NCBI GenBank assembly: GCA_034670405.1
Contig: JAXDDX010000145.1
Span: forward strand, 877,001-941,000
From: Hoplostethus atlanticus
Lineage: Eukaryota > Chordata > Actinopteri > Trachichthyiformes > Trachichthyidae
Direction of reading: 5' to 3'
DNA: 64,000 nucleotides
In this document: piece after piece, positions 2,223 through 64,000 of the stretch
How positions within the stretch are numbered: position 1 is the stretch's first letter
How the letters are laid out: every line of letters starts with the position of its first letter
Translations under genes and position numbers: made by a program
Notes under the pieces: generated by a model
What the model saw: the letters and a program-made list of their open reading frames with translations, nothing else
Told to the model about the DNA's origin: nothing
Databases searched by the model: none

Positions 2223-2776
2223 CTGGAGAGAGAGATAGAGAGAGCAACAGTCATACAGCAAAACACCCATTCATTCACATTGGCCACAGGAAATATCATT
2301 GGAATAGTTATTTCTTGCTACTATTGGCTGAGGTTAGTAAAGCAATACAGCCCATGTAGACTGTAGCGGCGCTGTTTCGCAGTCTACTCTTGGCGGCTCC
2401 TTGACTCCAATACCAAAAGCCCGCTTCGACAGCAGAGAAGCAACATGTCAGCATTTATTGCAATGGTGGCAGTCAATCTTGAACTTTGGTCGATATCAAG
2501 TTAAACGCGGAATTACACGGTGTTGTTGTATTTTGTCTCCAATCCACACGATATTTTGCTAATGCTACCGCACAAGGAGGCGCTGCGTAAAACGTCATAC
2601 GCAGCGACAAACGAGGAACGAATGACGTTTTACGCCACGCTTCCGCGTTTCGTTGTGATAGCAACGGGCCGGGTTACCCAGGAAATATAAGCTGTGTGCG
2701 ACTCGCCGTTAAACTCGGAGAAAGAGAAGAAGAAATCTCCGTGGCCTATGCTTTATTACGAGAGGATACCTGTGGC
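2223..2776. promoter_or_regulatory. Divergent promoter between poc1a and b9d2, with X-box-like site
   Basis: About 550 bases separate the first recognised poc1a exon from the b9d2 ATG. GTTGTGATAGCAAC at 2652-2665 resembles the RFX X-box of ciliary genes: the right half AGCAAC fits RRNRAC, and the left half GTTGTG misses RYYNYY at one position. A TATA-like 'aaatataagc' follows at about 2682. Upstream are nested inverted repeats: CGCTGCGT (2581-2588) with ACGCAGCG (2599-2606), and a perfect 14-base pair at 2585-2598 and 2622-2635 whose arms contain ACGTCA/TGACGT, CRE half-sites. The poc1a 5' end must also lie in this interval. Confidence 0.6.
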
Positions 2777-3304
2777 ATGGCAGAGCTGCACATTATAGGT
2801 CAGATCGTAGGGGCCAGTGGCTTTCCACAGAGCAGCCTATTTTGCAAATGGGGAGTTCATGCGGGAGGTGCGTGGCGGCTTCTCTCTGGCCTGAAGGAGG
2901 GCCAGACTCAGGTGGATCTCCCACAGACTGGAGATATGGCGTACTGGAGTCATCCAATTGATCTTCACTACACGACTAAAGGACTCCAAGGCTGGCCAAA
3001 GCTTCATCTGCAAGTTTGGCACCAGGACTCTTTTGGCCGTTGTCAGCTGTATGGCTATGGGTATTGTCACGTCCCCTCCAGTCCCGGGCACCACCACGTA
3101 CGTTGTGTGACATGGAGACCGCTTGGGTCTTGGCAAGAGCAGCTAGCTCAAGTGTTTGTTGGCGGTGGCCCCCAGCTGCGTACCCCAGACCTCATCTACA
3201 GTGGGGCGGACAGATACAGGCTGCACACTGAAGCCATGGGGACTGTTGAGTTGGAGCTAGGCGTCATCATGCGACACTTTGACAAATATGGCGTCGAGTG
3301 TTAA
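2777..3304 (+). CDS. b9d2: B9 domain-containing protein 2
   Basis: Component of the tectonic/MKS complex at the ciliary transition zone, which gates protein entry into the cilium. The product is 175 residues, the same as human B9D2 as I know it, and is collinear throughout: [16 protein letters not shown] at the start, [39 protein letters not shown], a conserved [12 protein letters not shown] block, and a terminus FDKYGVEC. The B9 domain fills most of the chain. The frame is open upstream to 2696, but similarity begins at the ATG at 2777. Oddly, the whole coding sequence is one exon, whereas the human gene is split by introns. An AATAAA lies 125 bases after the stop. It stands head to head with poc1a, another centriole/cilium gene. 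Confidence 0.95.
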
Positions 3305-20900: not shown

Positions 20901-23361
20901 GGAACTTACTGGTCCCCGAGATGTTCCTGGTGCCTCCCGCCCCTGAACCGTGCTTCTGTAATGTATCCCTGGAAACAGAAGATTCTGATATGAAATTTAA
21001 CCCGTCTATGGAATAAAATACTGATGAAATTCTTGTTGGTGGGGTGGCACCTCTTCTAGACAGTGGTTGTTCACCCTGAATATTTAGTGGTATGGCCAAC
21101 ACTGGATATAAATCCACAATTCTAAAGAAGCTTAGGTCTTAGCTTTCATCTTAGTAGCAGTTCTGTTAGTCATATAGAGTGTATATGTCTCTTATATGTA
21201 CTGATCTTTGTATGCCTGCTTTATCGTATTTTTAATTTGTTATTATTTATTAGGCTTTGTACAGCACTTTGGTCAACTTTGTTGTTTTTAAACGTGCTTT
21301 ATAAATAAACCTGACTTGACATCTTGATTGTTTTTAGGAGCTGTACAACAACAGATTGGCAGCCTTTAAAAGCTATAAGCCCATTGAGGGGGAAAAAAAG
21401 AAATTTGGGCCAATTACTGATAGCAAGGTAACACCTTGAAGTAAGGGGACACCTTGAAGCAAGGTGTTACCACTGCAGAGGGATAAAAACAACCAGGCAA
21501 GCTGAAACAGGCCGAAAGGAAAGGAGGAAAACATCACACAGTTCATTAGTGCAAACAGGGTATAGGAGTAAACTATGGTTCACTAACACGCTACACCCAC
21601 ACAAACAATGGACTGGATCACCCATGGGTGTCAGGTTGTGTCCACCTCCCTTCCCTCAGTAGGACAACGGAAAACATACACAGCTCAAAGTGTCATTACA
21701 CCCACAGAAAAAGGGGGGGCTGGCTGGGTGACCTATCAGTGTAGTCTTTCGTACATTACATACAAATAACTCCTCCAATACTCACATGATGGATTGCACT
21801 ACCCGTGGGTGTCGGCTCATGCCTAAGTAGTCATTGCTGCACCACACTGACACCTCCCTCTTGTCCTCTAGAGAGTCTGTGTAGTTGTCGGCCATGGGGA
21901 ACTCAGTGGCCAGACGGTTCACAGTCTTAAACACACGGTAAGTGTGGTCGCTCTTCTTCTCGTCGATCTTCTTTTCCATAAAAGTATCATAATGGAAGTT
22001 GGAGACTGTCGAAAAAGGAAGATGGTTTTCGTAAGCAAGGGTAATTCCTGCAATACTAATAACATGGCTTGCACTGGTGTTGGATGAGGCAATTTCTTAT
22101 TAACAAAATGTCTTGTAAGCTCTTATTGTTCACCTTATTTGCCAAACAGCAACATGTGGACACTTACAAAATCTTCCGATATACAACTAAATACAAGCCT
22201 TTCAAACTATTGAGGTTGACCTGTGATAATTAATTTACTGTGTGGCTAGGTAATTACAAAAGTTGTAAGCAAGAAAAAAAAAAAAAAGTAAACTAAACTT
22301 ACAACTGCTTGGCAAGTTATCCTGCAACAGATGGGAGACCCTTTTTGGCCGCTGCTTCAGTAAGTTCTTCATCAGAGAGGCATGGTCTCCCCCGCCCACC
22401 TTAGTGGTACTGGCCAAGGAGGGCTGCTTCAGCTGGGCAGGAGACACATCTGGGATATACACAGAAAGGAATACCTCACTTTTCTTTAGATCATGGCCTC
22501 TTTTTAATTTGACTCCCACAAAAACTAAAATTAGAATTTATGTAAAATACTTTCCATCCATTTTTACATTTCAGACTATGCAAAGCACAGTCTATACACA
22601 GATGTGATTCAAGAGACACAAACTGCAAGAAATTAAATCCAGCTTCAGTTGTCCCTTAATGTGATTTTCCATGTGCCCGCTCACCCCAAAAGCACGAATC
22701 CACTCAATACTACAATACATCAATACATTTTCTTAGTGTCTTACCTTTCTGGACAGTGCGGACTTCCTGAACATCCTCTTGGAGTTCCATGCTAACCTGG
22801 CGGACCACATTGCTATTCTGGCCCATCTCAGCAGCCAAAAAGGGGCATTTGGAGGCTGCCACCTGGCCAGAGGGTGGCATAGGGTGGCCGGAGGACAGCT
22901 TGGGCTCCTGTTCCTGCTTGGGGCCTGGAGGTGGAGAGGAGTTTTAAAATAGCAGATACATACTCAGTCATTTATTCAAAACCCCAGGAGCACTATGATT
23001 AACTGTGGTGTAGCTAATAGGAATCCAAAATAAAGTATCTGATGTGTCAGTCATTAATACACTTTACATAAACAGGATACATAGGTACAGCTAGGCTACT
23101 GGATTTCTGAGGATATCAGGCAAAAAAAGCCTCTCCCTCTCCATCACACTTACCTTCATTGGCAGACAGGGCGTCCTCAGTCTTTTGGTGGGAAGAAGAG
23201 GAACAGAGGGCTCGGACCATCATTGGGGCCAGGGGCTTGGAGGCCAGATCCATCATGACGGGGCATCGCTGGGCATAAACCACCAGAGACTTTCTGGCCT
23301 GTTGGAAGAAGGTCTGGGGCACACGGGACAGGAACGGACAGCGACGCACTACCACATCCAT
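17939..23361 (-). CDS. alas1: 5-aminolevulinate synthase 1 (housekeeping ALAS)
   Basis: Mitochondrial PLP enzyme that condenses glycine and succinyl-CoA, the first and rate-limiting step of heme synthesis. Coding exons on the minus strand: 23361-23154, 22924-22745, 22449-22303, 22005-21786, 20968-20784, 20585-20406, 19963-19799, 18893-18625, 18463-18301, 18099-17939. They join in phase to 625 residues (human ALAS1: 640). The presequence has heme-regulatory Cys-Pro motifs at residues 8-9 (RRCPFL), 33-34 (QRCPVM) and 96-97 (SKCPFL). The catalytic core includes [31 protein letters not shown] and ISGTLGKAFG, whose Lys430 should bind PLP. The N-terminus ([13 protein letters not shown]) and C-terminus ([16 protein letters not shown]) match ALAS1 rather than ALAS2. 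The ATG at 23361 is chosen because it aligns with the human start. Exon 1 is non-coding and lies at about 24351-24520. Expected control: heme blocks import through the CP motifs. The 5' exon also appears to carry an IRE. Confidence 0.97.
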
Positions 23362-23656
23362 AGTCAGCAATAATGCTTATGATTGTCCAAAGGTCTGGTG
23401 GATGGAGACAAAATTGAAAGAGTGAAGATAGTTGTTGAGTTACAGATCTTTTCTGATTGATGATTATCAATCGTATGGAGAAAAACAGAATGGATTTGAG
23501 CAAAAAACAAACTCGGGACAATTATTGTTCCGTGTTCTTGCTATACAAAACTTATTTTTAAAAAGGTGTTGGTTTAAGTAATAAAGCATAAATAATGAAG
23601 AAAAGTTAAGCCCGTTTTACAACCACAAGGATTATATTACAGAATTTACATTACAG

Positions 23657-23700
23657 TCATTTAGCAGACGCTTTTATCCAAAGCGACTTACAATGAGTGC
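23657..23700 (+). repeat. Dispersed fish repeat block in alas1 intron 1
   Basis: 'catttagcagacgctttta' followed by 'tccaaagcgacttacaatga' is a block found in many teleost genomes, probably part of a short interspersed or DNA element. Full element ends are not recognisable here. Confidence 0.6.
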
Positions 23701-24350
23701 CTTCAACGTAGGTAGGCACGAGAACTACTAGTCACTAGAAATCGTAAGTGCATTAACTTCCTAAACAAGCATCTACGAGCATAACCAGTGCTAAGGTTAA
23801 AGTGCAATAAGATAGCTGCCTACTTTGTATTTAAACAAATGAAACAAATAAGGGAAGCAAATAAACAAGTACTAGACCCAGCTGGATCCAGTTTTCCAGG
23901 AATCACCCCCCACCCCCCTGCTAGGGGTCCCCGACATGCATTGTCGTTCGTGTCTGCCCTTCTTGCTAGTACGTCCCCTTATGAAAACTCACTTTCCACG
24001 GCAATTTTGTCTGTGGAATAAGAACGCTAACATTACTATCATCCCCAATCATTATTACAAATCTGTTTGTGGTCAGTTACAATGTCTGTACGGGCTGATT
24101 TAACGTTAGCTGGCAATAGCTTCATTAATAATGTATAACAGAATAAGAATGGCTTGTTGGCCGACTAATATTAAAGAACCAGCTACTAGATTTTGGGAAA
24201 CCCTAGTCAGACTGTTAACTAACGTTATCTTACTAAGTCTGGCCGTCCGTCAACCTGGTCGGTTGACCTACCTTAGCTAGCATAGACGTTAGCTAGCTAA
24301 AGTAACGTTAGTACCAACAGGATGATAACGACGAAAGTGGAGAAACTTAC

Positions 24351-24520
24351 CTCGTAAAAGCTTCACACGATATTAAGGAACCCTGTTGCTGGTCGCTTAA
24401 TTGACAGGACAACAAAACAAGGCTAGTCTAAACCCCAAAACGAGATAACGTTACTCCTTTTTGAGAAGGTGAGAGACAGATGACAGCCTTCGTTATCCTG
24501 CACTGAGGACGAACGAAAAG
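24351..24520 (-). other. alas1: alas1 non-coding exon 1 (5' UTR)
   Basis: The minus strand reads ...ACGAG|gtaagt with the donor at 24350, and the matching acceptor before the coding exon is at 23395-23396, leaving 33 untranslated bases (23394-23362) before the ATG. The upstream limit is inferred from a TATA-like box at about 24539-24545, which would place the start near 24514-24520. No ATG occurs in this exon. The IRE occupies its 5' end. The transcription start is inferred, not observed. Confidence 0.65.
24487..24519 (-). promoter_or_regulatory. Iron-responsive element (IRE) in alas1 5' UTR
   Basis: On the minus strand this folds as a textbook IRE. Lower stem TTCGTT (24517-24512) pairs with AACGAA (24494-24489), extended by two U-G wobbles at 24518-24519 and 24488-24487. 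There is a bulged C at 24511. The five-pair upper stem is GTCCT (24510-24506) with AGGAT (24499-24495), one G-U. The hexaloop is CAGTGC (24505-24500). Loop, bulge and upper-stem length match the consensus bound by IRP1/IRP2, and the upper half is nearly the same as the ALAS2 IRE as I remember it. It would be cap-proximal, the position needed for translational repression at low iron. Open point: whether transcription starts at or upstream of 24517. Confidence 0.85.
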
Positions 24521-24580
24521 GACGAGAACGTGCAATCGCTTATAAGTACCCACACGGACGGAGTTCTCGCGAGAGGTTAT
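24521..24580 (-). promoter_or_regulatory. alas1: alas1 core promoter: TATA-like box and TCTCGCGAGA motif
   Basis: CTTATAAG at 24539-24546 is TATA-like and reads the same on both strands. The perfect palindrome TCTCGCGAGA at 24565-24574 is a known vertebrate promoter motif. Spacing fits a start near 24514-24520. The region is CpG-richer than its surroundings. Confidence 0.55.
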
Positions 24581-26999: not shown

Positions 27000-27214
27000 C
27001 AACGGAATTACCCGTGGCTATGCTTGTGCGAGATTACAGCGCGCATGCGTTAACGCCCACTTCTGCAGACCGGATGTTGGGCCACATTGTCTTGCTTGTT
27101 TTGCGCTATTATCTCCTCTACGTAGACGATCTTTGCAAAGGAGAAACGAAACAGTACCTCGGTGAGGAGTAGATCGCCAATTTCCTGCCTGGATTCAGGA
27201 ATCCTCAAGTAGCC
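27000..27214 (+). promoter_or_regulatory. shisa5 promoter and 5' UTR, with NRF-1-like site
   Basis: CGCGCATGCG at 27040-27049 contains the palindromic core of the NRF-1 site, with the last consensus bases changed. It lies about 165 bases before the ATG in a CpG-richer stretch. No TATA box is evident. The start site cannot be fixed. Confidence 0.45.
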
Positions 27215-30200
27215 ATGGCGGCAGGCCTGTCCACTGTTGTTGTGTGTCTTTTATGTGTGATCCTGGTTCCCGTTGTGTCTGGTGAGTTTGATTTTAAACA
27301 CGTCAGCGAATGCTCCTTTCTTCATATCCATGCCACGTTGTCGGTGTTTGTTTCAATATGGTCTATTGCTTTCTTTAATCAGCTCAGATCGATAAGAAGT
27401 CGACGCAAAGAGACCGAGTTAGGGCGATGGCAATGACGTTATCTGTGCAGTAGAGAGCTGGGTGGTTTGGTATTACTTTAATAAAATAAGTTACGGTTTG
27501 TTTTTTAAAACTATTATAAAAAACTATAAACTGTGTTTTATATTGTCGTTTACCCCGTGGCGCACTCCACTAGCGGAGAACCGAAAAGGCGGTTATTAAT
27601 TTGTTTTTATTGATCTGAAGCAGCGTCGGTTGCCAAAGCACACACTAAAATCCACAGTGACAGACTGAATGGATTGAAATAACTGGTCGTTGTGTGAATG
27701 TGCGTCAACGTTACCCTATAATGACTGAATACACAGACTTTACCCAAGTAAAGTGTGTTCAGTCATCTCTCATCTTTTTGCTTCTGGCAGTGTGTTAAAT
27801 CACCTCTACAAATTTGCTTTCAGCAGTAATAAGGCTGAACTTTCTCCTAATACCCCCCCATCCTTGTTACAGCAGGGGACCGGGAGTGTAAGTCCTACAC
27901 CGATATCGGTAATGAGTACCACTCGTCCCAGAAATGCTACATAGGATTTTGCTGTGGAACCTGCAACAACAGATATTGCTGCCAGGACTCCTTCTGGCGT
28001 CTCCGTGAAGATAAACAGGATGATTGTTACGAAAGGTATTCTACTCTTATTCTGTCTATTTTGATAATTGATAAATAAATTTAAAAAAGGATGGACTTTT
28101 ATTTCAGGTTTCAGTGTTTGGAGTGATTTCAAGACTGGGCTAGAAATCACGGTAAAAGAAAAGATGCATAATGTTTTGTGACAGTGTGAGGATAAAACTT
28201 GTTACGTGGTAAGAAACCCCGAGCGTAGGATCATTTTTATATCTCTCTTTCTCTCTGTTCCTGTTTATATAACCACAGGACAGATGTTCTTTCGCAACCT
28301 GTTATACAGTGATTATTCTGTTCAGGCAAAACAGGAAGTACTGCCTTCCTGTGCAAGACCACCACCATGCATCTAACCAACCTTGCAAATCAAGTCCAAG
28401 TTGCATCAACAATCTCCTTTTTGTTTCAGATTATCTGACTTCTTTTCTCTTCTTCATTGAAGCGTGACGCACGCTGCATTGCAAGCCTTTATGAACCACA
28501 CATAAATACTGATTGATTTATACTGAAATAAATAAATACATAAAGGTGTGTGTGTGGTGATTATTGCGATTATTATTGTGATTATATAATAATTTGTTTG
28601 CATTGTTTTTGCTTCATTTGTCTCTCAGCTCTGGCGTCAATGAGACCGTGACCATCGCCTCTGGTGTTGCCGGTATTATCGTCGTCATCGTCCTCATCAT
28701 CTGCTGCTGTGTCTGTCCCTGCTGCTGCCTGTACAAGATGTGTCGCCAGCCACGACGTAAGGAGCAATTTACTAAAGAATGATCCAAGTCAATTGACGAT
28801 GCTGCTGGATACAGAACCAGCGCCTTGTTCTTTCACCGTGTCATGCCTCCATGTTAGTACCCATAACCTAAGTAGATAATGTGGCCTATTTTAAAGGACT
28901 ATATATATTTTTTTAGGAATATTTGTGATGCCTCTTTTATTTGGATAAGCGTTAATACCTCAAAGACTTTGTTTGGCACCTCCCTCGATTGATTGGATAT
29001 TTGGTACCCAGAGCTTTAACACCACACTTCAAAGGCATTGCTTCCTGTGCTGTGGGCCTGGCTTCTCAGAAGAGCCTTCTTTGTTTCCTCTTTTAGATGC
29101 CGTATTAATGCACCACAAAGCAATTTCTCACAAGAAATGACATACCTCAGAGGTTAGCGATGGCATTTTCATCAAATGGAGTCATACGTGTGGGTTTTGA
29201 GGTGCTTAACTTGCATTTTTCCGCAAGCGCATAAGCAAGAAATACCTAGAGATCCTCTGAGGTAAAAGCTGCTACAAAGGCAAGAATAACAAAGGACCCA
29301 CGTGCCAAAAACAAAGGGATTGACCTTGAAAGGCAAAGTCTGTAAATCACAAGCTGGCAGCCTGCTGCAGCCTTAATAAGATGCACTGCATGCCAGACTG
29401 ACAACAAACTTTTTTTCTTTTTTTTTTTTAGTAAGCCTGCATGGAACGACAGGCCCTATTTCTTCGGTTTAAATGAAGAACTGTGGTTTAAGGTGGTTTC
29501 GGTCTCTAGCGTGTTGCCGTGCTTGTCCGTCTGATCGGCAAAGTGCGTGTTTGCGGAACATCAAGGGATAGGGCGTCATCAGGGGACTGGGCGTGTATGA
29601 CTCAGTTGAGGATCTTTGGCCAACCCAACACATGACTTCCATTACCGCAGCCTCCTCGGCCTCACCGGTTAACACTGCGTGCTGCAACATGAAGCACAAA
29701 CTGATCCAACGTCAAAGATTACAATGATGCAAAAGGAGGTTTATTCAGTTTGGTAAAGACTGTCCAGATCTGTGGAGTTTGTCATCTATCTCAAGGCTTT
29801 TAGAGAGTAGGGTCACCCCCAAAACCTTTAGGAACTAACCTAAGCTTTCTTGATACTGTTCAGGGAACCAGTCTAAGGAAAAACCCAACGGATACAAAAG
29901 CGAAACTTCTGTTAAGTGGTGAGGACAAACCCTTAGTAGTCCTATAGGGAGGAAAAACCTTGGCGCGTCCAGTTCTTACTTTGTAGTTCATATCAGGGGG
30001 AAGGGCCGGCTCATCTCTCCACAGCAGAGTGGGTTCGTTTCCAATGTTTGTCTCCTTCCCTTTTCCCTTTTGGTCCTTACTGCCACGCAAAGACTAAATC
30101 TTTGCTTTCTCCTCTTCACAGATCTCAGACCAGATAGCACTCACACTAGTCTCCACCCTGGGGTTTATCATACCAGTCCCCTCCCCTATGAATTCCTCAA

Positions 30201-30507
30201 TAATGTCCTCACAGCAGAGGAAAGTACCTACGCTGCACACTCAGCTCCAGTCTCAGTCGTGCCTGTCAGCTTGCCAGCTAGTAAGGTTAGGCATGGTGCA
30301 GTAGGCTAGCGTGGAGCCGCTGGCTGGGGGCTGTTGCAATGTTGGGATCACACTCAGGAATTTTTTTTGAATTCCACCTCGCGTGAGTCATCGTTTCCAC
30401 GACAACCACGGGGTGGGGGAGGAGAGCTGGGGAAAAAAAATTCCCATGTCATTTACAGGAAGCGGTCGTGTTGACACCCACTCGGGGTGGAAAAACTGGT
30501 GGTGGGG

Positions 30508-30554
<47 letters not shown>

Positions 30555-33129
30555 TCTCTTGACAGCTTCCTTCTCTGAACTTAACCTAACTTAACCCTTG
30601 TACCCACAGTGAAGTGTGTATACTTTAAATGGAGAAATGAAGAGGCTCTGTCTCCTCCTTCAATACCACTGATACTGTAAGCTGTAGTGTCAGCCAATAG
30701 GTTAATATGATTCATTTAAGCTCCTTTTTATAGTTTTATCACAAGGTTTTACTTAGGGAAGAATTTCTGATGAATGCAGAAGTGACGTTTTGAGTGAAGT
30801 CCGGCCCACTTGTGGAACACATCGATTGTTTGTGCGATGGTTTTCCCTGAAATTGAAATTTCTCTCGTATAGTCCCGATTACAAGGCTCAATTCTTCCTC
30901 ACTACTGTATAATTCTGATTTCTATCGGCCTATTACTCATCCACGTCTTACCTCTTGTGTGTTTCCAGCGGTGGTGGCCACCACCACCCATACCACGGTC
31001 GTTACCAGCACTCCCCAGCAGTACCCCCAGCAGTACCCGCAGCAGCCGACCGCATCCCCGGCACAGCCGCAGTCCTACCAGGGCGGTCAGTACCCGGGCT
31101 ACCAGCCCATACCGATCCAGCCGGGCTACGGAGCCCAGCCCGTGCCCCAGGGCTACGGACCGCAGCCCTTGCCGACGGCGCCCTACCACGGACAGCCTTA
31201 CGCACCGGGACCGCCACCGCCTTATCAGGAAGCTGGTGGGTTCGGATTTTTTTTTTTTTAATTTTTTTTTTTGGAGGTTACTCTGGATAAAAGCCTTTGC
31301 TAAATGCCTATAATGAAAATGTAGTCATATAGAATAGACAAAAAAAATGCACCGTTTGTTATAGCTGTCTGTATAGTTGTCATATGGGAGATTTCAGCAG
31401 GGCTGCATTTCACTAATGGATAGGTAAGCAGACTATAGGCAGACAAAAACGAGACTGTTGGGCTGTTAGGATTAACTTTCTTTGTTGATTATACCCCAGC
31501 AGGTAATTACATATTACAGTGTAAGTTGATAGTAAATACATTGCGTTTTGCTCCCTTAAAATCGCTGCAGGCGGATGCGGAGGTGGAATGACCACTGCAG
31601 ACATAAAGTTAGCCCGAACGTCTGGGGGTGAAAAAAAAGGAAGTGGAACAACATTTATAGTCGTTTGTCCGAGACAGAACGGACCTTGTGGTTACTGTCC
31701 AAACATTTTAAAGGGGGGGTATTGTACTCATTTTGGGCTATTTAAACTGTTCCTGGGGGTCTTTACAAGACGTTTGTGAAGTCTATATCAAAAAAAATCC
31801 TAAAACCAGCTTCTGTGGTGTGTGTTTCAGTCTCTCATTTTCTCCATTGTAAAGAACAGGCTGTTTTGAGGGCGTGGAGGTTGTATGTAATGAGCACTGT
31901 AAGTCTGTCGAACGTGTCAGGCTTGGTGAACTTTAGCCACCATTAGTACAATCGCGTTTGGTTGTTTGCGCTGCTCTGTTTGGATGCAAATAGATTGCAT
32001 CCATCCATTGGCCGCGTCACGCCTCACTCACGGCGTGAGGCGGCCAATCAGAGCAGTGCTCATTACATACAACCTCCACGCAATGGCCTGGCGGAGGCGG
32101 AGAGCAGAGCGCTCATGCTGCTCAAGGTCAACAAATAAGCTTGATGCAGAAATCTACCATAACCATGGCGGCCGCTCCAGAACCAACACTGAGACCGGAC
32201 ATGTTTGAGCCGGACTCTGACCCAGAATGAGAAGAGGCAGCTGAGGCGGTTCCACTTAGTTTCTCACTGATAACAATTCTGTGTAATATTGTACTTTGTG
32301 CCTTGTGTTTGTGTATGTGGGTGTGTGAGCAACACTCTCTGCTGTAGCCGGTCTATTTATGGCTCATGTCCATAAGCTTATTGAATACAACTTGCAGACA
32401 AGCTAGGATTGACAATTTTGTTGAGCTAGTTAACCAATATATTATTGGATGCAACCTATTTGCATCCAAACAGCGCAGCCAAACAACCAAACACGATTGT
32501 ACTAATGGTGGCTAAAGTTTACCAAGCCTGACACGTTCGACAGACTTATAAAACAGACACTGGTCCCAACAAATAACTTTAAGATGAGTCCTGACTCCAA
32601 CCAATAACTTTACTTTTACTTTACTTTTAATGACTCCAGCTTTAGTTTTCTTACTTCTTCCACGCCCAACAAGCCCGTGGCTAGCCCCTGAGAGGGGCTG
32701 GATTAGCCCCTTATGACGTCCAAAGGAACCACTTTCTGAAACGGGCTGTTTTTGGCACCGTTTTTGGAAAAAGGAAAATACAGAACGGGTTGACTTCCAG
32801 ATTTCAGCTGCTTAGGGAAGTAATTTCCTGTGGAACATGTATAAGCGCCAGGAATAAACCGTTTTCCATAATATGGGACCTTTAAAGACCCCCTCCTGTT
32901 CAAACCGTGTTTTTCTCTCTTGCTTGTTTCTTCAGGCTACGGTCCAGCTCCGATGCCTTACAGCCAGGCCGCGTACGCCCCGGGGCAGCCGGCGTACCCT
33001 CCGCAACCCCCCGCCCAACCTCAGGCCCAGAGTCCGCCCACCGCGCCACAACCAGCGCAGCCAGACTACCACGCCCAGCCGGCATACAACCCAGCTTACG
33101 GCCAACCGCCGCCCAAGAGCGGATACTAG
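27215..33129 (+). CDS. shisa5: Shisa family protein, shisa5 (scotin)-like, first tandem copy
   Basis: Type I membrane protein of the endoplasmic reticulum/nuclear membrane. Mammalian SHISA5 is p53-inducible and pro-apoptotic. Five exons: 27215-27281, 27873-28035, 28629-28756, 30969-31235, 32936-33129, all GT-AG with consistent phases, giving 272 residues (human SHISA5: 240). Exon 1 is a signal peptide ending VVSGE/A. Exon 2 is the Shisa cysteine-rich domain with CYIGFCCGTCNNRYCC. Exon 3 gives the membrane helix ending in IICCCVCPCCCLYKMCRQ. Exon 4 starts PVVATTTHTTVV, as in SHISA5, and is Pro/Gln/Tyr-rich with the PPxY-type motif PPPPY. Exon 5 is Pro/Ala/Gln-rich and ends PPPKSGY. PPxY motifs bind WW-domain proteins such as NEDD4-type ligases. 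A fold-back element and a short repeat block sit in the last intron. SHISA4 is the main alternative, but the tail and length favour SHISA5. Confidence 0.88.
30506..30555. repeat. (AC)n microsatellite
   Basis: An AC run, interrupted once by AAAC, in the third intron of the first shisa gene. Confidence 0.9.
31279..31315 (-). repeat. Inverted copy of the dispersed fish repeat block
   Basis: 'ctctggataaaagcctttgc' followed by 'taaatgcctataatg' is the reverse complement of the block at 23657-23700 with a few changes. It lies 40 bases after a shisa5 exon. Confidence 0.55.
31871..32547. mobile_element. Fold-back element with ~100-bp terminal inverted repeats
   Basis: The arm 31901-32002 and the reverse complement of 32447-32547 are nearly identical (about 95 of 101 positions). 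Both contain TTTAGCCACCATTAGTACAA and TTTGGATGCAAATAG. A second inverted pair is nested: 31875-31898 (GTGGAGGTTGTATGTAATGAG...) with about 32056-32081. Between them is a hairpin, 32007-32023 with 32032-32048, one mismatch in 17, containing CCAAT on its outer edge. No open frame of note. It lies in shisa5 intron 4. Most likely a non-autonomous DNA transposon, or two copies inserted in opposite orientation. Confidence 0.7.
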
Positions 33130-39275: not shown

Positions 39276-39766
39276 CGGCAAGGTAGTGATGTCACACACA
39301 CACTGAAGCCTGGCCTTCTGCTGTCTCTAGCTTCAGAAGGATCTGTCAGCAGTGGCCCAGATGACCCCCCCTGACCGCCTTTAGACATCCATCCAGACTG
39401 GCACAGGTGAGCAGACACACATATTCTTCTTTGTCTGCATGCTGTATGTGCTAGTTCAGAGATAAATACATTCAGTTACTACATTCATCAGTGTATAGAT
39501 ATCCCCAATTCTTTTTCCTTCTCTCTCTTGCGCTCTCAGAATTTAAAGATGGTGTATGATTTTGTGGTCTATTTTCTATTTCATTTCAGGGTCGATGGAA
39601 AGATCCCCTCTCACATAGGCACACCCTGCACCACCAAGCACCTGTTTATGCATTATAATAAAATCTAAAAATAAACAATTGTGTCAGTGGGGAAAAATAA
39701 TATGGGTAAGGCAGTTTTGGAAACAAATCCAGTTAACCATACCAGATGCAGGGTCACTTAAGCTGT

Positions 39767-44500
<4,734 letters not shown>

Positions 44501-60527: not shown

Positions 60528-62918
60528 GTCTGTGGATCTTTCTTGTCTGTGGTCTCGCTGTTTCCGGTCTGTTTAGCCAGCCTGTCAGTCTGCATGTGTG
60601 TGTCTAGTGTGTCTGAAGCTGCCCAGGGTACCTTGGTGGTGGTTTTCTCCTAGTTTTTGTTTTGCTAGACTGATTTACGGACTAAATAACTAACATTGAT
60701 CTGAGGAAGTCATTGCTAACTTTTTGTAGAATGAGTTCAGAGATGCTTGTCAGTGATCTGTGGGTATTTACTGTCTAGTGAGCCATAGCATTAGAGGATA
60801 GTCCTGTTGTGGAACCGAGTCGATGTGCTTTCTCGTTCCATGTAATCAAATAGATAGCTCGAGGCCATTTAGGGTCTAATGAATGCTAACCGGTAGCGTT
60901 TTAGTGGGGTCAGTTGTGCCTTTCCATTAAGTGTGTGGATCTACTATAAATCTCTCTATTCACATATCAGCAAACCTACTTACCTCATACTCATGATGAG
61001 CCGCCCCCCCCCTTTGACGGCACTAATTCCCACATGACCTATGAGCTTCAATTATAACATGACGCATGCCTCCATCGAACCTAACCGAATGATATGCCGC
61101 ACATGTGCATGCTTACTAAATGACAGCGTTCTAGCTATTTCTGATGCCTTTTAATGAAGCCTCACACACACAGGATTCCACTGTTAAATCCTTCGGATGC
61201 CAATTTATCTTGCAGATTAGGAGTAAACACCAAAACTCCCCTACACCCATGGCTCGCTCACATCCAATCCATAACATCGTATTATTGGCGTGTTTTAAGC
61301 CAGATGGAGCGATTTGTCGGGGCCGGGTTTATCTGGAGGCTGTCTGCCAAGTTAGAGTGGATTCTTCCATTTCAAAGGCAGCACTAAATGATCCTCTAGC
61401 AGTTTGTCAAAAAGAGGAACACAATGTGAGAAAAAGACTTTCTGCGCTTGTATTTTCTTACATATAGTTTAGCCACATTTAACCACATTGTCATTAGGTT
61501 GTGCAAGTCTCAATGACAAAGCCGTCACACGTTTGTGAGACCGATACAGGGGCCCCGCCCCTTTTAAAAAACCTTTGCAGGATAAAGCTTCCATTCCCCA
61601 TTTAGTTTTACAGAGACGACCTAGCAGCTAGCTTGCGCGTTAAAAGCCACCCTGTGTGTAAAAAGTAGCAGCTTGTCCCCGTCCGTCGGTTTTTTACAGG
61701 AGCTGAGCTGCAAGACTGTTGCATTCCACACCTGCCACCCTGGAGCTGTTTGTCTGTCTCCCCCCAGAATCCCCTGCAATCCCTCTGCATGTTTACTCAG
61801 CGCTAACAGACGCCCCCACGTCCTGATATATTACCCCTCCCCTTCCCCTTTTTCACACACCCCTGCATGTTAAGCTAGCATTTGCATGTTGTTTCTGATT
61901 TGATTTCTCTATGTGAAACATTTGATACAATGTGCCATTTTTCACAGACTCATAATTTCAACACAATCTTGCACATGCACATGCACACACCCCTCCCCCT
62001 TACACTTCTCCACTCGTCCACTCTACCTGATTTGTATGCAAGCACATCCTCACATTCCCTCACATGCACAGACACACATACACCTACATCGTGCACACCC
62101 ATACACAAAGAGAGGGGAATCGCTTTAGGCTATAAATCTGATTAATGTCCAGCCGCTATGTTTACACGCTGCCTTCACCAGAGAGACAGCTAATTCATTG
62201 CAGTGGCACCATGAGACATGAGGCAAAGCCCGATACATCTTCTTCTCTTAACCTCACAAACAGCCTTTTTTTGCTCTTACCACTGGACAGGACCGTTCTC
62301 CCACCTCCGACGGCCTTCCACTAGCTAACACAACACACACCATTTACACCCATCATGAGTATGACATAAAATCAATAGTCACTTAAGGCACACATTTCAT
62401 TAGTACCAGGATGAGCAGAACATGCTAACACTAAGAGGAGATGAGCCTCTGAGCCCCATGGTCGACATTAACCCCTGATCCTTCCTCCTCCTCCTCCCCC
62501 GGCCCTTCCTCCCTTCCTTCCCCCAGGGTTCTCTGTGGACTCTGCCATGGCGATAATGCGCCTTCGGGAGCTGACCTTCGTGGCGGGGGCGCCGCGGGCC
62601 AACCACACGGGGGCGGTGGTGCTGCTGCGGAAGGACAACGTGTACCGGCTGGTGCCGCAGCACATTATTTGGGGGGAGGAGCTGGCGTCTTCCTTCGGGT
62701 ACTCGGTGGCCACCGTGGACCTCAACAGTGATGGGTGAGGAAACGTTGAAGAACAGAAGGCGGCGGCAGTGAAAAGAAATACATGGATGATAAAATGAAA
62801 ATAAAAATGTTTAGTCCTCGCTCTCGAACTGAAAACATATTATCAATAAATCATCATTAAAACATAGACTCTTGGTACTATGGTCATATGAAGGTCCACT
62901 AGAGGAATTCTATTCTAT

Positions 62919-62978
<60 letters not shown>

Positions 62979-64000
62979 ACTAGCTGGACAGACCTGATTG
63001 TGGGGGCTCCTAATTTCTTTGACCGTAAGGCAGAGATTGGCGGGGCTGTATACGTGTACCTGAACCCCTTTGGTCATTGGGACGACCAGGCTCGGCCCAT
63101 CCGCCTCAATGGGACCTATGACTCCATGTTTGGCATGGCGGTCAGCAACATAGGGGATCTGGACCAAGATGGATACGGAGGTGAGAGGAATAGAATGGGG
63201 ATGTCTGAATGGACTGTTTGGTTCTTATATGTGAAGCTAAAAATGTGTTTCAATCTCTTGTGTCTGTTCAGATATCGCAGTGGGAGCACCGTTTGATGGA
63301 GATGGCAAAGTCTTCATCTATAGAGGCTCTGATGCAGGCATTGAAACAAAGCCTGCTCAGGTGAGTTGTACCACTCATAGTGTGAAGGACTGAAGGAAGA
63401 ATACAGGAAAAAGGAAGTATATTAAAGGAAGGAACGAAGGCAGGCTGGAAGGAAGGATGACAAGAAGGAATGAAGGCAGGTAGAAAGGAAGGCAAGAAGA
63501 GGGAAGGAAGAAGGAAAAATTGATGGAAAAGATGAAGGAAAAATGAAGGACGGGAGAAAGGAGGGAAGGAAGGAAGGAAGGAAGAAAGCAAGGAAAAACA
63601 ACACATGACTGACTCAATGAATGAACGAATGAATGCCATCAAAACATTTGTAACTGCTGATCATAGTGATGCATAGTCTGACCAGTTTTCTTCACCCCTG
63701 TCAGGTGCTGGATGGTCGTGACTTTGACGTGAAGTGTTTTGGCTACTCCATCTCAGGGGGTTTGGACATCGATAACAACCAGTACCCAGACCTGGCAGTG
63801 GGCTCGCTCAACGATTCAGTAGTTCTCTTCAGGTGAGATCGGATGTAAAGACCTATGTGAGACCTATACCTATACTCAAATGCGTTTGGACACATCCTTG
63901 CCAGGCTCCTCTGGTGACATATACAGAGGAAAAATAAGTCAATTTTCTTTGTCTCATCCAAGGTCTCGTCCAGTCATCCACGTGCTCCGAGATATATCTG
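44962..64000 (+). CDS. itga7: Integrin alpha-7, partial (N-terminal beta-propeller)
   Basis: Laminin-receptor integrin alpha chain, pairs with beta-1, mainly in muscle. Exons: 44962-45179, 56283-56410, 56568-56647, 57136-57392, 59335-59466 (X1), 60090-60197 (X2), 62527-62734, 62984-63180, 63272-63360, 63705-63832, 63963 onward. Exon 1 holds the signal peptide (hydrophobic to about residue 38), then mature [21 protein letters not shown] blades follow, with Ca-binding loops DLNSDGWTD and DLDQDGYGD, and [19 protein letters not shown] and the X2 exon sequence identify ITGA7 rather than ITGA6 or ITGA3. The ATG at 44962 is taken because it precedes a signal peptide and the conserved FNLD. Exon 4 has one extra C at about 57292-57293: the frame runs to GRPQG, and the conserved [10 protein letters not shown] continues in the next frame. 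The expected exon is 256 bases, and 257 are present. The gene runs off the right edge. Confidence 0.93.
45180..56282 (+). other. itga7: itga7 intron 1 (11 kb)
   Basis: Donor TG|gtgagtgg at 45180 and acceptor tttag at 56281-56282. No exon-like similarity was found inside. Contents: TG/CA runs (for example about 49261-49288, 51683-51705, 53340-53379, 53502-53547), TC (50679-50719), GATA (50952-51010) and several poly-G/poly-C tracts. The length suits an intron with enhancers, but I cannot point to one. Confidence 0.75.
50952..51010. repeat. (GATA)n microsatellite
   Basis: About 15 uninterrupted GATA units in itga7 intron 1. Confidence 0.97.
56764..56911. repeat. (AAT)n array with self-complementary core
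   Basis: AAT/ATT-rich simple sequence in itga7 intron 3. ATGACAGCAATAAT (56783-56796) is exactly complementary to 56813-56826, so the first half folds into a long hairpin. Further TATATA and TTATTATTA tracts complement it. Confidence 0.85.
57729..57811 (+). repeat. LINE-like 3' tail in itga7 intron
   Basis: 'actgcactgaggagttctgc' near the start, then 'gacgtgacaataaacttgaa' and repeated ACTTGAA units, the form of a LINE 3' end (CR1/L2/Rex type). Upstream sequence is T-rich and not codable. Confidence 0.5.
58063..58631. mobile_element. Tc1/mariner-type element, internally deleted
   Basis: The left end CACTATATGGCCAAAAGT and right end ACTTTTGGCCATAGTG are imperfect terminal inverted repeats. 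They extend inward as ...CAGCGGACACCT and AGGTGTGTCCACTG, and each is flanked by TA (58061-58062 and 58632-58633), the Tc1 target duplication. The interior ('ttaatatggagttggacccc', 'caaactgttgccacaaagtt') is the 3' part of a Tc1-like transposase gene common in fish. The minus strand still reads [20 protein letters not shown], followed by breaks. At 569 bases it has lost most of the transposase and is non-autonomous. It lies between itga7 exon 4 and exon X1. Confidence 0.85.
59335..59466 (+). other. itga7: itga7 alternative exon X1
   Basis: A 132-base phase-1 exon with tctag acceptor and CTGG|gtagga donor. It encodes [15 protein letters not shown]...DDGPYEV...[11 protein letters not shown], matching the human ITGA7 X1 segment (DDGPYE...LIPVPANSY) between blades III and IV of the propeller. 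In mammals X1 and X2 are mutually exclusive and tune laminin-isoform binding. Both are multiples of three and share phase, so either can join exon 4 to 62527. Confidence 0.88.
60090..60197 (+). other. itga7: itga7 alternative exon X2
   Basis: A 108-base phase-1 exon with ccgtag acceptor after a long pyrimidine tract and TTAG|gtttg donor. It encodes [20 protein letters not shown]... ending AHNSYLG, close to the human X2 segment (LLFVTN...LVYKTLDP...NSYLG). It lies 623 bases after X1. The donor is weaker than that of X1, as may suit regulated choice. Confidence 0.9.
60489..60526. repeat. (TG)n microsatellite
   Basis: A TG run in the itga7 intron after exon X2, about 290 bases downstream of its donor. 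Confidence 0.95.
62920..62974. repeat. (TC)n forming an itga7 polypyrimidine tract
   Basis: A 55-base TC run ends nine bases before the acceptor AG at 62982-62983, so the microsatellite itself serves as the polypyrimidine tract. Confidence 0.95.
63395..63600. repeat. GGAA-rich degenerate repeat
   Basis: An imperfect array of GGAAGGAA, GAAGGAAGA and related units in an itga7 intron. On the minus strand it yields Phe/Leu/Pro/Ser-rich frames that are not genes. Confidence 0.9.

Follow-up and report, generated by a model that had tools for sequence, protein, structure and literature searches.

A stretch of 64,000 nucleotides from the fish Hoplostethus atlanticus (hereafter the window) carries on its minus strand, upstream of a splice donor of the alas1 gene, a hairpin with the sequence and structural grammar of an iron-responsive element (IRE), and this hairpin is, with high probability, a genuine IRE at the 5' end of a teleost alas1, related by common descent to the IRE of ALAS2 and bringing the enzyme under the control of both iron and heme. 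In mammals it is the erythroid gene, ALAS2, that is known to carry the IRE. In the alas1 mRNA the element would sit near the cap and, at low iron, would be bound by IRP1/IRP2, blocking the initiation of translation; ALA synthesis would then follow the supply of iron, and the three CP (heme-regulatory) motifs of the protein would add control by heme to control by iron.

Table 1. Features of the alas1 locus and its surroundings, in window coordinates.
Feature	Position	Strand	Basis
IRE hairpin	24487..24519	-	sequence, pairing, motif scan and null, covariance model, match to human ALAS2 IRE
alas1 exon 1, noncoding; 5' end 24521 assumed	24351..24521	-	canonical donor GAG-GTAAGT at 24350
Predicted pairing partner of the IRE loop and 3' arm (24504-24484)	24399..24425	-	ViennaRNA, prediction
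TATA-like TATAAG, weak	24539..24544	-	sequence
alas1 exon 2: 33 nt of 5' UTR, ATG at 23361, RRCPFL and QRCPVM	23154..23394	-	canonical acceptor and donor, translation
alas1 coding sequence, 10 exons, 625 aa	17939..23361	-	boundaries by eye, checked by frame and splice sites
WD40 exons, poc1-like gene	151-2001	- (as alas1)	WD40 motif scan

Read directly from the minus strand, positions 24519-24487 of the window are TTTTCGTTCGTCCTCAGTGCAGGATAACGAAGG, which divides into the hairpin parts TTTTCGTT-C-GTCCT-CAGTGC-AGGAT-AACGAAGG. The lower stem joins 24512-24519 with 24494-24487 (TA, TA, GC, CG, TA, TA, TG, TG) in eight pairs, six of them Watson-Crick and two of them terminal wobbles, and gives way to an unpaired, bulged C at 24511. 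Above this, the five pairs of the upper stem join 24510-24506 with 24495-24499 (GT, TA, CG, CG, TA), the basal pair being a G-U wobble, and close on the CAGTGC loop at 24505-24500. The loop, the bulge and all 13 pairs, three of them wobbles, are intact. The hairpin claimed in the first-pass annotation, with a lower stem of six pairs (eight with wobbles), a bulged C at 24511 and a CAGTGC loop, is borne out pair by pair, and so is its five-pair upper stem, save that the basal wobble went unmentioned there.

PMC8466369 lists five features of an IRE, namely a CG cross-loop pair between positions 14 and 18, AGU at positions 15-17, U or C at position 19, a bulged C8 and a five-pair upper helix, and the alas1 hairpin has all five of them. 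The cross-loop pair and the AGU are supplied by CAGTGC at 24505-24500, position 19 is the C at 24500, the bulge is the unpaired C at 24511, and the upper helix runs from pair 24510/24495 to pair 24506/24499. The lower helix is likewise that of a canonical IRE, with eight pairs of which two are wobbles. Together with the identity of the encoded protein as ALAS1, the five features of PMC8466369 uphold the claim of a canonical IRE in the 5' exon of alas1, the exon being a predicted one.

That such a hairpin arose by chance in unrelated promoter or exon sequence has a probability close to nil, and we rejected this explanation on the strength of the single grammar site, the match to the ALAS2 IRE and a Markov null. 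When both strands of the 64 kb window were scanned strictly for the IRE grammar (bulged C, five standard pairs, CAGWGH loop), a single site came up, at 24519-24487, and in 1500 first-order Markov windows at least six lower pairs were seen in two matches and eight lower pairs in none. A covariance model seeded with five printed human IREs (three from TFRC, one each from SLC40A1 and ACO2), a set that contains no ALAS or ferritin IREs and from which seven further printed IREs were left out, matched the window nowhere but at the alas1 hairpin (23.8 bits, E 6.7e-4), figures that are rough given five seeds and a shortened calibration. A chance origin would sit more easily with the folding energy of a 46-base piece, which is modestly low (z -1.55; 12 of 200 shuffled sequences reached an energy as low or lower) and is, on its own, weaker evidence for an IRE than the grammar scan. 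It would also sit more easily with Rfam 15, which, in scans of the fish sequence alone, gave no IRE family match in the whole window at the gathering threshold, nor, with E values of up to 10 allowed, in 2.5 kb or in a slice of 61 bases. It is contradicted, however, by the eight lower pairs seen in none of the simulated windows, by the near-identity to the ALAS2 IRE described below, and by a gene family, strand and exon that are all right for an IRE. The IRE core was also sought in collections of viral and prokaryote contigs, where it had 0 matches, as expected because the element is a vertebrate one.

As the first-pass annotation had proposed, the gene that follows the hairpin is alas1 and not alas2: its product is an ALAS enzyme that bears heme-regulatory CP motifs and whose core is ALAS1-like when set against a provisional human ALAS1 sequence, which also serves in the comparisons below. 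The nine introns that separate the coding exons are all GT-AG, and the 625-aa protein contains the Pfam domains Preseq_ALAS and Aminotran_1_2. Three CP motifs had been described as intact, and all three are found in the translation (RRCPFL, QRCPVM and SKCPFL, the third encoded in exon 3). A full-length alignment to human ALAS1 matches at 471 of 646 positions, and within the 438 core residues 368 are identical to human ALAS1 as against 318 to human ALAS2, for which the protein reference was taken from PDB 5qqq. At the 116 core sites that differ between the two human enzymes, 67 residues are ALAS1-like, 17 are ALAS2-like and 32 are neither. The CP motifs are, in addition, of the HRM_t type, which PMC3904948 assigns to six of six teleost ALAS1 proteins and to none of five teleost ALAS2 proteins.

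Were the gene really alas2, the IRE would be unremarkable. Such an identity has in its favour that the best PDB sequence match of the protein is an erythroid ALAS, 5qqq, though the 54 matched PDB sequences include none that bears the name of the nonspecific enzyme, ALAS1; it is nonetheless very improbable, and we rejected it on the protein alignment, the core identity and the HRM_t CP motifs. The poc1-like WD40 exons within the window would also speak against alas2. A POC1 chain was ninth among the best 60 of 119 PDB matches to these exons; the label poc1 for the exons at 151-2001 is otherwise our assumption, and POC1A, we take it, adjoins ALAS1 in mammals.

Other features of the window lie further afield. 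An open frame at 2591-3301 (+) presumably encodes a protein resembling the B9-domain protein B9D2, exons at 27173-33129 (+) are taken by us to belong to a cysteine-rich, proline-tailed membrane protein resembling shisa5/scotin, and an exon at 62892-63293 (+) presumably resembles an integrin alpha repeat. A TG/CA microsatellite of roughly 400 bases, at 39762-40190, was seen as repeat-coding open frames, and intron 1 of alas1 holds at 23651-23701 (-) the 3' tail of an UnaL2 LINE (Rfam RF00436, 64.4 bits).

The fish element was compared with the 5' IRE of human ALAS2, printed in PMC12845348 as GUUCGUCCUCAGUGCAGGGCAAC and located in PMC2413145 at NM_000032:13-36, not far from where that record begins; a mouse Alas2 primer given in PMC8752087 contains the identical 15-base stretch CGTCCTCAGTGCAGG. 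The core at 24514-24492 agrees with the printed human sequence at 21 of 23 positions, a match for which about 4e-6 would be expected per window assuming equal base frequencies, whereas no other 23-mer of the window agrees at more than 15 of 23. The two elements share, besides these bases, the CAGUGC loop, the bulged C and, on the predicted exon structure, a location in the 5' UTR. They differ in the 3' arm of the upper stem, which holds both mismatches (AU here for GC) and in which standard pairs remain, and in that the fish element belongs to the housekeeping paralogue. A likeness this close would follow more readily if the ALAS1 and ALAS2 elements share an ancestor than if they had converged, though two sequences are no proof. 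It fits the idea, raised in the first-pass annotation, that the IRE was retained from before the ALAS1/ALAS2 split, and we infer that the alas1 element descends from a pre-duplication ALAS.

The position of the hairpin fits the predicted exon structure of the alas1 5' UTR, for which a start at 24521 is assumed. Exon 1 ends at 24351 and is followed by GTAAGT, and exon 2 begins at 23394 after a pyrimidine-rich acceptor, a canonical-looking arrangement. The donor at 24350 would join the alas1 start exon as had been claimed, the splice sites and the ATG at 23361 looking canonical in these predicted exons. The spliced 5' UTR, 204 nt from the assumed start, contains no ATG. A 5' UTR IRE that controls translation typically stands within about 40 nt of the cap, and we infer that the hairpin is included in the transcript and is cap-proximal; binding of IRPs to it and the resulting repression of translation would be the expected consequence. 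This functional reading is at its weakest over where transcription starts. By the usual TATA-to-start spacing, the weak TATA-like site at 24544-24539 would put a putative start near 24511-24516, within the lower stem of the IRE.

This site is one of two observations that would suit a relic, that is, an IRE that was inherited but is unused, whether through a transcription start within the hairpin or below it or through a fold of the 5' UTR that hides it; the other is a competing helix predicted within exon 1. When folded locally, the hairpin forms readily, with an upper-stem probability of 0.89-0.90 and a formed lower stem for eight starts from 24530 to 24514; from starts at 24513 or below the lower stem is lost, the upper stem still standing at 0.89. 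In folds of the whole UTR with ViennaRNA, the IRE hairpin reaches a probability of no more than about 0.01 from any of the 14 starts tried, and enforcing the IRE costs 4.9 kcal/mol relative to the competing helix. With shuffled flanks the median hairpin probability is 0.89, with 175 of 200 above 0.5, and six of 200 suppress the hairpin to 0.01 or below, as strongly as the real flanks do. In a transcript growing from 24521, the hairpin holds at 0.90 up to 70 nt and drops to 0.23 at 95 nt; it recovers to 0.90 at 105-110 nt and is close to nil at 120 nt and longer. We treat the competing fold as a caution and not as a refutation, because global folds of a 200-nt UTR are unreliable and because IRP binding could pay the cost.

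A relic is also at odds with the intact state of the loop, the bulge and every pair, and with the standard pairs that are kept at both bases where the core departs from that of human ALAS2. Teleost ALAS1 5' UTRs in PMC3904948 bear on it in both directions, three of the four having an IRE, which argues against a relic, and one of the four lacking it, which counts against a genuine element. Overall, we consider an unused relic unlikely. The folding predictions would also allow the alas1 5' UTR to be a two-state RNA, in which a cap-proximal IRE could be hidden by its partner at 24425-24399 in the same exon and control by IRPs and iron would depend on a further input, for instance alternative starts, the kinetics of folding or the activity of a helicase; to this model-based scheme we attach little credence. 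The reading that we prefer remains that of a genuine and working IRE in the 5' UTR of alas1.

IREs in teleost ALAS1 have been described before. Tzou et al. 2014 (PMC3904948) surveyed ALAS 5' UTRs using the SIREs program, taking those of teleost ALAS1 from annotated gene models or extending them with cDNA, and Table 4 of that study reports ALAS1 IREs in three of four teleosts, in none of five mammals and in none of five birds, reptiles or amphibians. For ALAS2, the same table reports an IRE in three of three teleosts; across vertebrates the text counts nine of 13 ALAS2 5' UTRs with an IRE and the table sums to nine of nine. Outside the vertebrates, Table 4 gives IREs rated high quality in the ALAS of one of two chordates (a tunicate) and of one of one echinoderm (a sea urchin), and medium-quality IREs in honey bee and sea anemone ALAS. 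The tunicate and sea urchin elements, compared here by description, resemble ours as 5' UTR IREs of an ALAS gene, in their case one that stands outside the ALAS1/ALAS2 split.

Since teleost ALAS1 IREs were reported in 2014, in the same gene, the same untranslated region and the same class of element (PMC3904948), the element in the window is a further instance and not a new one. The first-pass annotation was right to see an IRE in a fish alas1; on whether such an element had been reported it was unsure, and the three of four teleosts in PMC3904948 settle that it had. Its ancestral-retention idea had likewise been anticipated there, the authors proposing that the ancestral ALAS had both an IRE and heme-regulatory motifs, with teleost ALAS1 retaining the IRE. 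A functional test of a fish alas1 IRE was sought in the literature, and none was recognised among the matches listed. To the report in PMC3904948 the present case adds the sequence of its own IRE, the exon structure in which it lies and a comparison with the ALAS2 IRE.

The near-identity to the human ALAS2 IRE lends direct sequence support to the 2014 proposal that the IRE is older than the duplication of ALAS1 and ALAS2. If the element is functional, the housekeeping heme enzyme of teleosts would respond to iron as well as to heme, unlike that of mammals.
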